DNA of 26,124 nucleotides from a virus, in the IMG/VR virus record IMGVR_UViG_3300017727_000135, positions 1 through 26,124 of that record. The stretch is one strand, 5' to 3'. Both the position numbers and the translations under genes were made by a program. Below the pieces are notes generated by a model. The model did no database searches. It saw only the letters and a program-made list of their open reading frames with translations, and had not been told where the DNA came from. How positions within the stretch are numbered: position 1 is the first letter of the stretch; every line of letters begins with the position of its first letter. This document shows, one piece after another, positions 8,096 through 17,543 of the stretch.

Positions 8096-10162
8096 ATGAA
8101 TAAAACTATAGTACTTTTTCCAGGCGGGTTCAAACCATTAACCGGAGCCCATTTAGCACTAGCAAATCGTTATGCTCAATCTTCCAATGTAGAACGGGTA
8201 ATAATGTTGATTGGACCAAAAGAACGAGACGGTGTTAGCAGACAAGATACTGCAGAAATCTTCAATCTAATTAATAGCAATCCAAAAATTGCGATGCAAC
8301 CCACTGATTACAATTCTCCAATTATGGCTGCATATGAATACTTATTTGCATTACCAGAAACAGACAATGGAACATATGCAATGGCGGCATCTAAAAAAGG
8401 TGATGATTATGCTCGTACCATGAGTTTTGGAAGTAACGTGGAAAAATACAAAACAGTTGGAGATAAAGGCGGCAGAAAAATGCCTGCTGGTATCAATGTT
8501 AATCCACTCGAAATTGATGTAGATCCATTAGCATACGCAGACGGAACACCTATTTCTGCTAGCACAGTAAGAAAGGCCATTACAGAAAAGGATTATGAAA
8601 CATTTGCAGCATCATATCCAGGTACTAAAGAAGCAATTGTTAAAAATATTTGGCAAATGTTAACTGGAGTACAAGAGTCAATATTTAGTAAAGATTGGTG
8701 GGGACAACAATTATCTGAAGATATAGATGAAGTGATTGAGGGATACCAAACTCCTAAAATGGCTAAAGCTCATGACAAAAAAATAAAGAAATTAAAAAAG
8801 TTTTTGGACAAGAGTAGAGGAAAAGAATTTGTTTATGATTTTAATAATTTTAGTAAAACGGTATTTGGTGCTCCTATAAAAGAATCTTTAATAACTGAAG
8901 GTGGTGCTGGAGGTCATATGAATCATCCATATGATGCTTATGGTTTAACTTTCAATGATATGAAAGAAATTGTTTCTAGAGCATTAGAGGGACGTTTAGA
9001 CATAGAACAAGAAGTAACAGAAAAGACTGATGGTCAGAATATTCAAGTAACATGGAAAAATGGAGAACCTGGATTTGCTCGTGGGGTGAAAACAGTTAGA
9101 AATCCAATGACAACATCAGAAATTATTGCTAGCTTCGAAGAAAAATATCAGAAAATAGTTGATGAAAGTGGTACAGATGCCGCAGAAGGATATAAATCAG
9201 TAGTAGAAGCATATACCGAAACAGCTGCAGACTTAACAAGTGCTTTAAGTAAATTATCACCACGCACATTACAGTCTATATTTAAAAACGGACGTGTTTT
9301 TGCTAACATGGAAATTATTTACCCATCTACTAAAAATATTATTGCGTATGAAACGGCAGTATTACAATTTCATAATTTGGTAGAATATGATGAATCAGGA
9401 AAAGTAGTGCAGACAGACTTAGCAGGTGGTACTACATTACAAAAAGTAATTCAAGATGCAAATGCACATTTACAAAAGACATTTTCATTTATACCTCCTA
9501 ATAAAATGAAGCTAGGACAAATTGAAGATTTTGAAGATAAACAAAATGCATTCTTTGCTGAAATTGATAGTTTAAAAAATCAATTCGGACTAAAAGAAAC
9601 AGATACCGTTTCTGAATATCATAAAGCATGGTGGAAAAATATAATACAAGAAAAGGCAGATCAACTAGGATATGATATAAACGATGAAATAATAGAGTTA
9701 TTAACATACCGATGGGCATTTGGAGATAAATCTACTAGTATTACTAAAATTAAAAAATTGATTGACAACGATCAATTTGCTGAGTGGGTTTCTGCATTTG
9801 ATAAAAAAGATTTTAAATTATATCGTAAACAAAATATACAACCATTTGAATCTATATTCTTAAGACTTGGAGCTGTTGTATTAAAAAACATTAAAAACTA
9901 TCTTGCAGCAAATCCAAATGCAGCAGTTCAGGATATAAAACGAAGTATAGCAAACTTAACTAAACAATTACAAACATCAGACAATATTGAAACTATTAAC
10001 AAATTAGAAACTGAGCTTAAGAAAATAGAACAAATCGGAGGCTTTGATACTATAGTTCCAATTGAAGGCATAGTATTCACATACGGAGGTAATACGTATA
10101 AACTAACAGGCTCATTTGCTCCAGTCAATCAAATACTAGGAGTGTTAAAATACGCAAGGTAA
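8096..10162 (+). CDS. NMN-adenylyltransferase-like / nucleic-acid-ligase-like fusion protein
   Basis: This 688-residue protein has two nucleotidyl-transfer domains. Residues 1-190 resemble the HIGH-type nucleotidylyltransferases (NadM/NadR, CoaD). The opening FPGGFKP-LTGAH (8-19) matches GxFxPxHxGH, with Thr17 replacing the first His, and ISASTVR (153-159) matches the ISxSxxR signature. A basic linker (about 200-262) leads to a GGAGGHMNHP motif (269-278) and a covalent nucleotidyltransferase (RNA/DNA ligase) domain. That domain has motif I EKTDG with Lys310, motif III-like FANMEII (402-408), motif IV EGIVF (657-661) and motif V-like YKLTG with Lys669. Possible roles are NAD or cofactor synthesis coupled to end-joining or RNA repair, but substrates cannot be read from sequence. 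No Shine-Dalgarno precedes the start. It sits among structural genes, not with the replication genes. Confidence 0.7.
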   Translation: MNKTIVLFPGGFKPLTGAHLALANRYAQSSNVERVIMLIGPKERDGVSRQDTAEIFNLINSNPKIAMQPTDYNSPIMAAYEYLFALPETDNGTYAMAASKKGDDYARTMSFGSNVEKYKTVGDKGGRKMPAGINVNPLEIDVDPLAYADGTPISASTVRKAITEKDYETFAASYPGTKEAIVKNIWQMLTGVQESIFSKDWWGQQLSEDIDEVIEGYQTPKMAKAHDKKIKKLKKFLDKSRGKEFVYDFNNFSKTVFGAPIKESLITEGGAGGHMNHPYDAYGLTFNDMKEIVSRALEGRLDIEQEVTEKTDGQNIQVTWKNGEPGFARGVKTVRNPMTTSEIIASFEEKYQKIVDESGTDAAEGYKSVVEAYTETAADLTSALSKLSPRTLQSIFKNGRVFANMEIIYPSTKNIIAYETAVLQFHNLVEYDESGKVVQTDLAGGTTLQKVIQDANAHLQKTFSFIPPNKMKLGQIEDFEDKQNAFFAEIDSLKNQFGLKETDTVSEYHKAWWKNIIQEKADQLGYDINDEIIELLTYRWAFGDKSTSITKIKKLIDNDQFAEWVSAFDKKDFKLYRKQNIQPFESIFLRLGAVVLKNIKNYLAANPNAAVQDIKRSIANLTKQLQTSDNIETINKLETELKKIEQIGGFDTIVPIEGIVFTYGGNTYKLTGSFAPVNQILGVLKYAR

Positions 10163-16080: not shown

Positions 16081-16929
16081 ATGAAAAAATTGAAACATTC
16101 GAAATATAAAAACACCGGTATCTTATTTGAGATGCTTGTAAGGAAACTTACATCAGAAACAATGTCATCTGATAAAACAGTAACAATTGATATTATTAAA
16201 AAATATTTCGGTAAAAATACAGAACTATCAAAAGAACTTAATTTATATAATTCACTAATTAAAGAACAACATAAATCTGAAGCAAGAGCATTAGAATTTA
16301 TGCGAACTATTAGAGAATCATATAGCCGACTCAACCAGAGCACATTAAAAAGACAACGATATAATCTAGTTAAAGAAATATCTGAAAATTTTATATTTGA
16401 GCGTGTTTCTAAAATACATATTAATAATTACAAAGCATTAGCATCAATATACATGTTGTTTGAATATAAAGATTCTGATAATCCTAAAAAATTAATGGAA
16501 TGTAAAAATGCTGTATTAGAGCACACATTAATAGAACGAAAATCAGAAACACAAAAAGATATTGTTATTGAAGAATTCTCTAAACAAGAAAAAGATACAC
16601 GTCTATTAACATATAAGTTAATGATTGATAAATTTAACGAAAAATATTCAGGATTGTCAGAATCTCAGAAACAATTGTTAAATAAATATATTACTAATGT
16701 TAATGATACCGAAGCATTAAAAGAATATATATCCGATATAATACCATCATTAAAAAATAAATTAGCAGAACATTCTAAACACATAACAGACAAAGTAACA
16801 CAAATTAAGGTCACACGACTCTCAGAGATGCTTTGTAATGTTGAAACTATGAAACGTTTAAATGAGTCCCATATCGTATCATTAATGCGTTATATGGACT
16901 TAATTGACGAATTAAATAGGATACAATAA
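16081..16929 (+). CDS. Conserved helical protein between portal and prohead protease, function unknown
   Basis: 282 residues, almost entirely predicted alpha-helix, Lys/Glu/Leu-rich, with no enzymatic motif or membrane segment. The N-terminus K-Y-K-N-T-G-I-L-F-E-M-L-V-R (8-21) resembles a phrase I recall from proteins at the same locus in marine T4-like phages, but I cannot name a function. Its place between portal and the core/protease genes corresponds to T4 genes 67/68 and suggests a role in head assembly, possibly core formation. Start: first ATG after a 42-base gap, preceded by a palindrome in place of a Shine-Dalgarno. Its final base is shared with the ATG of the next gene (TAATG overlap). 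Confidence 0.75.
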   Translation: MKKLKHSKYKNTGILFEMLVRKLTSETMSSDKTVTIDIIKKYFGKNTELSKELNLYNSLIKEQHKSEARALEFMRTIRESYSRLNQSTLKRQRYNLVKEISENFIFERVSKIHINNYKALASIYMLFEYKDSDNPKKLMECKNAVLEHTLIERKSETQKDIVIEEFSKQEKDTRLLTYKLMIDKFNEKYSGLSESQKQLLNKYITNVNDTEALKEYISDIIPSLKNKLAEHSKHITDKVTQIKVTRLSEMLCNVETMKRLNESHIVSLMRYMDLIDELNRIQ

Positions 16930-17543
16930 TGAAATCATTTTTAAAACAAATAGAAGAAAGCTTTCAGTCACTCGATGAAAAAAAAGCAAAACCAGATTTT
17001 TTAGATTTAGATAACGACGGTGATACTGAAGAGTCAATGAAAAAAGCAGCAAAAGAAAAAAATGAAGCTGCTAAGCCTGATTATTTAGATTTTGACAATG
17101 ATGGCGATACTGAAGAGTCAATGAAGAAAGCATTAAGCGATAAAGATGAAGATGAGTTAGAAGAAATTTCTACATCTGCAGGAGCTGGGGCATATATGAC
17201 GCCTAAAGCATTTGGTAAAGCTGATGATGACACTGTTGAAGCATTAGGATATAAAAGAGTCCAGGAAGCAATGGATAATAAATATGAGCGTCTTATCGAA
17301 GGCTATAAAACATTTGCATTGAGTGATCCTAAAATGAGTCCTGCTAAAAAAGTAAATGCATCTATTAAAAATGTAGCTAAACAATTGAAAGAAATTGAAG
17401 AAACTATTAAATATACTAGTCGATTAAAAACAGAATCAGGAATATCACATTCTGGATTTGGTCCTAGTACTAGCAAGGCATTAGGAAAAATATCAGAGCG
17501 ATTAATTAAAATATCAGAGCGAGTTAGATCATTAGGAGAATAA
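16929..17543 (+). CDS. Prohead-core-like acidic protein with duplicated DxDNDGD motif
   Basis: 204 residues. Residues 21-40 and 49-68 are near-identical 20-residue units (PDFLDLDNDGD / PDYLDFDNDGD, then TEESMKKA), differing at two positions. The D-x-D-N-D-G-D core matches the Ca-binding loop of EF-hand and dockerin modules. A glycine/alanine segment follows (STSAGAGAYMTPKAFG, 81-96), which I associate with phage head/core proteins, then a helical basic C-terminus. Position (between portal and gp21-like protease) fits the small core proteins gp67/gp68 of T4. Two glutamates in LEE-I (about 77-80) and LIE-G (about 116-119) contexts could be protease sites. Start is supported by AGGA 8 bases upstream. 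Confidence 0.72.
   Translation: MKSFLKQIEESFQSLDEKKAKPDFLDLDNDGDTEESMKKAAKEKNEAAKPDYLDFDNDGDTEESMKKALSDKDEDELEEISTSAGAGAYMTPKAFGKADDDTVEALGYKRVQEAMDNKYERLIEGYKTFALSDPKMSPAKKVNASIKNVAKQLKEIEETIKYTSRLKTESGISHSGFGPSTSKALGKISERLIKISERVRSLGE
16989..17132 (+). repeat. In-gene duplication of a 60-base Ca-loop-like unit
   Basis: Two 60-base units (16989-17048 and 17073-17132) encode the repeated 20-residue motif, separated by 24 bases. Protein identity is 18 of 20, while many synonymous positions differ, so the duplication is not recent and the amino acids look constrained. Confidence 0.8.

Follow-up and report, generated by a model that had tools for sequence, protein, structure and literature searches.

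An NMN adenylyltransferase-like domain fused to a ligase-like domain in a T4-like phage, a candidate for delivery as processed head cargo

The window analysed here is the 26,124-nucleotide stretch at positions 1-26,124 of IMG/VR record IMGVR_UViG_3300017727_000135, which is limited to these 26 kb. An open reading frame (ORF) at 8096..10162 on its plus strand starts with ATG and encodes a 688-amino acid (aa) fusion of an NMN adenylyltransferase (NMNAT)-like domain with a ligase-like domain. Our best reading, in which we place slightly less than even confidence, is that the two form a virion-delivered pair which is cut apart in the prohead and seals nucleic-acid ends early in infection. Most of 80 IMG/VR loci keep the ORF from end to end (53-99% identity), and since it is conserved in this way it is not a chance ORF; the strand opposite carries stops throughout. 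We are nearly certain, on the strength of predicted structures and conserved active sites, that both folds are as assigned, and the two-domain fusion proposed in an earlier sequence-only reading of this DNA holds in both its parts.

The ligase-like domain spans residues 269-688 (8900..10159; this and the other features given in the form start..end are on the plus strand). In order to model it we used AlphaFold with a domain-only alignment of 56 family members, and obtained a predicted local distance difference test score (pLDDT) of 90.5 and a predicted template modelling score (pTM) of 0.87; this deeper alignment replaced a full-length run with a shallow alignment, in which the ligase half was poor. 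RNA ligases lead the Foldseek matches in the PDB, with T4 Rnl1 first (E 2.4e-3, probability 0.97). VIA-align likewise placed the Naegleria RNA ligase at the top (Z 9.0; 3.9 A over 185 residues), followed by Trl1 (8.6), Rnl1 (8.5) and Rnl2 (8.0), with DNA ligases and capping enzymes ranking below at Z 5-6; a Z under 8 may be due to chance, and a shared fold shows no function. About 185 of the 420 residues are covered by these alignments, the remainder being largely a long insertion of helices that separates motif IIIa from motif IV (residues about 445-655; 9428..10060) and is also seen in the secondary structure of the model. We accept the fold match because it agrees with the invariant catalytic residues K310, R329, E406, E657 and K669.

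These residues belong to a complete set of ligase-superfamily motifs. A KxDG with invariant Lys is followed in order by the Glu of motif III, the EG of motif IV and the Lys of motif V on a nucleotidyltransferase fold, and in the 56 members K310, R329, E406, F425-H426, E657-G658 and K669 (motifs I, Ia, III, IIIa, IV and V) are invariant. Motif I reads E-K310-T-D-G (9020..9034; K and DG invariant), motif III contains Glu406 (9311..9313) within NMEIIYP, and motifs IV (E657-G) and V (K669-L-T) lie at 10064..10102. The members from Mel-JY01 and from huge phages, at 34-37% identity, keep the same residues except F425-H426. Motifs I, III and IV had been named in the sequence-only reading, which had staked its proposal on a ligase fold in the C-terminal half and on conservation of Lys310 in homologues, and on all of these it was right; its motif V stands as regards the invariant K669, but has the form K-L/M-T and not K-x-K/R. 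Single-sequence scans of the window protein against Pfam, PHROGs and NCBIfam returned no useful match, only a weak one to PHROG_395, and left the ligase domain unrecognised; searching PDB sequences with a profile of the ligase family gave no match, and PF09414 (RNA_ligase) was touched by 3 of 17 members, below its gathering score (best E 0.072). The domain does not belong to the T4 Rnl1 family by these measures: it has no above-cut-off Pfam or PHROG ligase match and no C-terminal helical domain after motif V, the chain stopping about 19 residues past that motif.

The N-terminal domain (residues 1-190; 8096..8665) was modelled in the full-length AlphaFold run with block pLDDT values mostly of 77-91, and resembles CoaD (Z 13.6), NadD (12.5) and NadM (11.9). 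A profile of 17 very divergent phage NMNAT-like proteins matched the archaeal NMNAT MJ0541 in the PDB (1.8e-9) as well as NadD and CoaD structures, and G10, P14, H19, R107, S154, R159 and F170 are invariant in the 17. The model and the profile matches settle the domain as having a CoaD/NadD/NadM-type fold within the HIGH superfamily, and its (H/T)xxH and SxTxxR-type signatures are those of the NMN adenylyltransferase group. The second signature, ISASTVR, was found at residues 153-159, where the sequence-only reading had an ISxSxxR; the HxGH-type signature that it described is present as F12-K-P-L-T-G-A-H19, with the T-x-x-H (T-G-A-H, 16-19) seen in CoaD and not a strict HxGH. The cut-offs of curated NMNAT families were not reached, and because CoaD and NadM score alike, the fold does not assign a substrate.

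The two domains are rarely found apart. Fused-type loci were collected with the full protein as first query, which favours fusions, and the ligase alone as second; stand-alone ligases were collected with the ligase alone. Among 131 loci with an intact 5' side, 129 have the domains fused, and in the other two they are neighbours or lie within 3.3 kb of each other. Of 80 loci with a stand-alone ligase, 66 have an NMNAT-like domain in a downstream ORF, and in the other 14 less than 3 kb of DNA is present on the downstream side. Near-identical loci are frequent, and the counts are therefore not those of independent events. A four-base overlap with the NMNAT gene is seen in Stenotrophomonas phage Ps15 for a 268-aa protein in which KVDG, IEGV and K-x-Q elements were identified by eye. 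The pairing of the halves, either as a fusion or as neighbour genes, strongly supports the earlier suggestion that they work together, and they very probably form a functional pair.

In some split systems (loci L190:7298-9142, L148:7341-10442 and L082:6268-8226; numbers with the prefix L denote loci of our collection) we also noticed a second ligase-like ORF beside the first. It has a degenerate motif I (EKIQAS, EKLSGS, ENLDGS), often ends in an NMNAT-like domain, and may be an inactive or altered paralogue; the second ligase-like domain (A6) gave no significant ligase match.

Constant pairing would have an obvious chemical logic if the protein were a self-recycling NAD-dependent ligase, with the NMNAT half remaking NAD from ATP and the NMN released by the ligase half. 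NAD-dependent ligases do release NMN. They adenylate ends with NAD (PMC9503650). One relative, L082, matches LigA weakly at motif I (E 0.055). The nearest folds, however, are those of ATP-dependent RNA ligases, no LigA Ia domain was recognised by Pfam, and the halves, if cut apart, would have no physical coupling. We consider this explanation rather improbable.

That the halves may be cut apart is suggested by the sequence between them. The linker (residues 191-268; 8666..8899) has a lysine-rich stretch, is of low confidence in the full-length model, and in relatives receives inserted domains at about residue 268. It ends in two predicted prohead-protease sites, IKE263|S and ITE268|G269 (8882..8902). 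T4 gp21 cuts after L/I-X-E (PMC9026906), and of 112 distinct junctions, 109 have [LIV]xE|GG exactly where the ligase domain starts. Glu occupies position -1 in 109, Leu, Ile or Val occupies position -3 in all, and GG comes next in 111. Position -2 is variable and the sequence upstream is hypervariable, and elsewhere in the linker the same [LIV]xE triplet has a background of 3.4% per position. GGAG is the sole part of the ligase model with pLDDT below 50. Based on this pattern, a cut at E268 is probable.

Evidence for head targeting comes from relatives. In T4, residues 4 and 7 of the capsid targeting sequence (CTS) direct targeting and residues 8 and 10 direct cutting (PMC9026906). Stand-alone ligase ORFs open with a short leader, for example MKLFTYQEFLNE...LVLE|GG, and a CTS-like [YF]xxF[LIV]xE was found in 24 of 42 distinct leaders, where shuffled sequences would be expected to give 0.1. 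CTS-like starts are also present on cyanophage NMNAT-like proteins (MKSYKEFLSEA, MKKFSAFLNEA, MRFRQFIIEA) and on 15 of 76 proteins of the family DUF6267, which is discussed below. NMNAT-like proteins have been detected by mass spectrometry in virions of S-CREM2, S-SZBM1, S-SCSM1 and S-CBWM1 (PMC10665884, PMC9146016, PMC9602691). Head targeting of the NMNAT-like partner is supported by these relatives and by the literature; for this particular protein we infer cleavage and packaging, and judge it likely from its junction and its kin that the fusion product is virion cargo. The sequence-only reading had called the site between fibre and assembly genes an odd place for metabolism. This does not hold, as the gene belongs to a late head module, and three lines of evidence (the junction motif, the CTS N-termini of relatives and the virion proteomes) point to a packaged and processed head cargo.

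According to the mechanism that we favour, the fusion would be made late and enter the prohead, where the gp21-type protease of the phage (17545..18165; PF03420, Peptidase_S77, E 3.6e-30; PHROG_207, 5.2e-57) would cut after ITE268. This would free the NMNAT-like adenylyltransferase and a 420-residue ligase-like enzyme starting GGAGGHMNHP, and both would be injected along with the DNA. The ligase-like enzyme would then take AMP on Lys310 and seal ends, most likely of RNA, such as tRNA cut by a host defence, while the NMNAT-like enzyme would sustain the reaction on its NAD or adenylate side. For this last role our results do not separate restoration of NAD against an NADase defence, recycling of NMN from an NAD-dependent ligase, and supply of AMP. 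Both the substrate and the coupling of the two enzymes are what we infer; the chances that the reaction is end sealing, as opposed to some other transfer of AMP, seem to us evenly balanced.

The first of these roles could in principle be the whole function: the NMNAT half would be an active anti-defence cargo restoring NAD, and the ligase half an AMP donor or a modifier of a protein or small molecule. Phage NadM and NadR proteins and NAD reconstitution pathways are known. Against this, the ligase domain, with its invariant active site, is the larger half and accounts for most of the invariant columns in the fusion protein, so that we regard such a function as improbable.

Several observations weigh against delivery of an end-sealing pair. 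No result points to a particular nucleic acid, or indeed to any, as substrate; motif V is K-x-T in place of the usual form; and no kinase or phosphatase partner is encoded within the window. Fused forms do not have an N-terminal CTS (0 of 61 by a strict pattern), CTS-like N-termini occur on 58 of 1002 other ORFs of these phages, and [LIV]xE|GG might serve to cap the ligase domain structurally. The virion proteomes come from cyanophages and none from the window phage, their authors could not exclude carry-over, and the S-SZBM1 virion list has the NMNAT-like protein while its DUF6267 neighbour is unnamed in the text or table of that paper. The missing CTS and the possible carry-over would suit an unpackaged, intracellular bifunctional enzyme acting in RNA repair or NAD salvage during infection, with [LI]xE|GG being merely part of the ligase fold, and T4 Rnl1 and Pnkp do act from newly made protein. 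Such an enzyme would not account for the gene lying in the late head module, for an exact protease motif with a variable middle residue, or for the CTS on stand-alone ligases, DUF6267 and cyanophage NMNAT-like proteins, and we think it unlikely, though it is the most probable of the alternatives.

Virion delivery of the pair may extend well beyond the window phage. In T4-like cyanophages, an NMNAT-like gene annotated as 'cytitidyltransferase' is abutted or overlapped on its upstream side by a gene of DUF6267 (PF19782, PHROG_455). The two are next to or near each other at 64 of 69 loci with room; many abut and two are fused. An NMNAT-like gene is found in 537 phage records and DUF6267, annotated as unknown, in 470. 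DUF6267 shares with the ligase family of the window the order of its ligase-like motifs, which read KWDGAP, QGD, PNTIxY, FHT, PEG and KLV (KWDGAP, QGD, FHT, PEG and KLV are invariant; examples are L233:1287-2483, L234:1190-2380 and L236:1540-2514), and is also similar in its HLxHxED start, its long IIIa-IV stretch, its abutting NMNAT-like gene and, in some proteins, a CTS; unlike that family, DUF6267 has Asp for Glu in motif III and is in most cases encoded on its own, upstream of the NMNAT-like gene. A fold match in BFVD is to a 591-aa S-PM2 cytidyltransferase-like protein, which we suspect to be a DUF6267-NMNAT fusion. From the motifs, their order, the long insertion and this match we read DUF6267 as a probable ligase-like family. 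Profile comparison did not confirm it: hhalign of the ligase family against DUF6267 was not significant, even with 88 sequences, and PF19782 gave no match above cut-off for the window protein, nor, among the matches listed, for members of the family alignment (A2).

Two loci differ from this arrangement. The gene upstream of the NMNAT-like gene in S-H38 (P0002) was considered and set aside, as it belongs to PHROG_1462 and is not ligase-like by eye. In S-CRM01 (L260:4167-6176), downstream of DUF6267 come a small ORF and, in place of the NMNAT-like gene, a protein kinase with the CTS-like start MISFDQFLSEK.

Comparison with known systems sets the protein apart. It shares with T4 Rnl1, Naegleria-type and fungal tRNA ligases the core nucleotidyltransferase fold and motifs I, Ia, III, IIIa, IV and V, but shows no detectable resemblance in sequence to the characterised families, carries an uncommon IIIa-IV helical insertion of ~210 residues, ends right after its K-x-T motif V and is fused to an NMNAT-like domain. 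With NadM, NadR and CoaD it has in common the HIGH-superfamily fold and the TxxH and SxSxxR signatures, whereas its partner is a ligase fold and not a Nudix or nicotinamide-riboside kinase domain. T4 internal head proteins and Alt have [LI]xE|G/A sites as in the window family, and the CTS [YF]xxF[LI]xE of its stand-alone relatives; in contrast to them, the window cargo would be a two-enzyme fusion with its predicted site between the enzymes and not only at the ends. Polyvalent proteins (Iyer et al. 2017, PMC5512222) are likewise multi-domain and virion-associated with shuffled enzymatic domains.

Phages were already known to encode RNA ligases, as well as NadM and NadR fused to Nudix or kinase domains. 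The ligase and NMNAT architecture was not found in the passages searched in PMC5512222, PMC9503650 and PMC7824862, and a literature search that did not include most subscription journals yielded no report of this ligase family or its NMNAT pairing, and no paper naming DUF6267 or giving it a function. What is new here is the ligase-like family, its pairing with NMNAT and its proposed role as head cargo. The NMNAT-like gene and DUF6267 count as unknowns in several hundred sequenced T4-like cyanophages, and the published proteomes that detected the NMNAT-like protein in virions gave neither a partner nor an explanation for it. A ligase fold beside the NMNAT-like gene would make a single testable enzyme pair out of two orphan genes, with exact mature N-termini predicted. 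We give an even chance to the view that this is a very widespread phage system that had gone unrecognised, in which an NMNAT-like protein and a new ligase-like protein (DUF6267 included) form an obligate pair that is packaged in the head, released from a polyprotein by the prohead protease and injected for repair or modification of host or phage nucleic acid in the first minutes of infection. If true, it would be a new route by which phages deliver repair or NAD-related enzymes ahead of any gene expression.

Some relatives carry further domains in the same protein. L147 (3062-6931) has a P-loop kinase (Zeta_toxin 8e-8, AAA_33 3.5e-6, PHROG polynucleotide kinase 0.008) and L072 (2-2014) a HAD-like motif, additions that resemble the Pnkp-Rnl1 end-healing set of T4. 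Also shuffled into it (in L147, L143:3379-7200, L072, L080:6001-9084 and L084:4474-7218) are ADP-ribosyltransferase-like (YHYTDKKGLAGIL), protein-kinase-like and ParB-like (DGHHRWKA) pieces, which fit modular injected cargo as described for polyvalent proteins (PMC5512222). A DDGPxxFYG domain recurs in L084, L136, L139, L143 and L147. Many relatives, among them L060, L055, L066 and L077, have at the junction (residues about 270-400) a conserved domain of ~130 aa (ENYITRxEL...LNDPRN...) with [LI]xE motifs on its flanks. In L150-L229 we observed dozens of short unknown proteins, encoded by small ORFs, with MKHIKLFEQFLNE-like leaders; they may be a large head-targeted set in these phages.

The window as a whole represents a T4-like head module, with genes for SbcCD, fibres, the fusion protein, terminase, portal, protease and gp23 (PF07068). 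The fusion gene lies between the fibre and terminase genes, as it does in a 484-kb phage, and in the Mel-JY01 family member it is directly upstream of terminase. With fibre genes directly upstream, it could be thought of as a tail-fibre attachment factor like T4 gp63, that is Rnl1, a ligase which also promotes fibre attachment, so that the fold would have a second, non-enzymatic role in assembly. This is very improbable, as the active sites are intact and the cyanophage DUF6267-NMNAT pair is located near replication genes and away from fibre genes. In bacterial genomes only two loci were found, both on contigs of metagenome-assembled genomes.

Two other genes showed features of their own. The gp46/47-like SbcCD gene of the window matches the Pfam profiles PF00149 and AAA_23; in L077:627-3182 and L080:739-3294 the SbcCD-like gene is apparently broken just before GSTIQQNHGE, with a new start at MSKKIKLYRKKPE, possibly owing to an intron, an intein or a split gene. 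The protein encoded before the protease (16929-17543) has repeated, calcium-loop-like KPDxLDxDNDGDTEESMKKA motifs.
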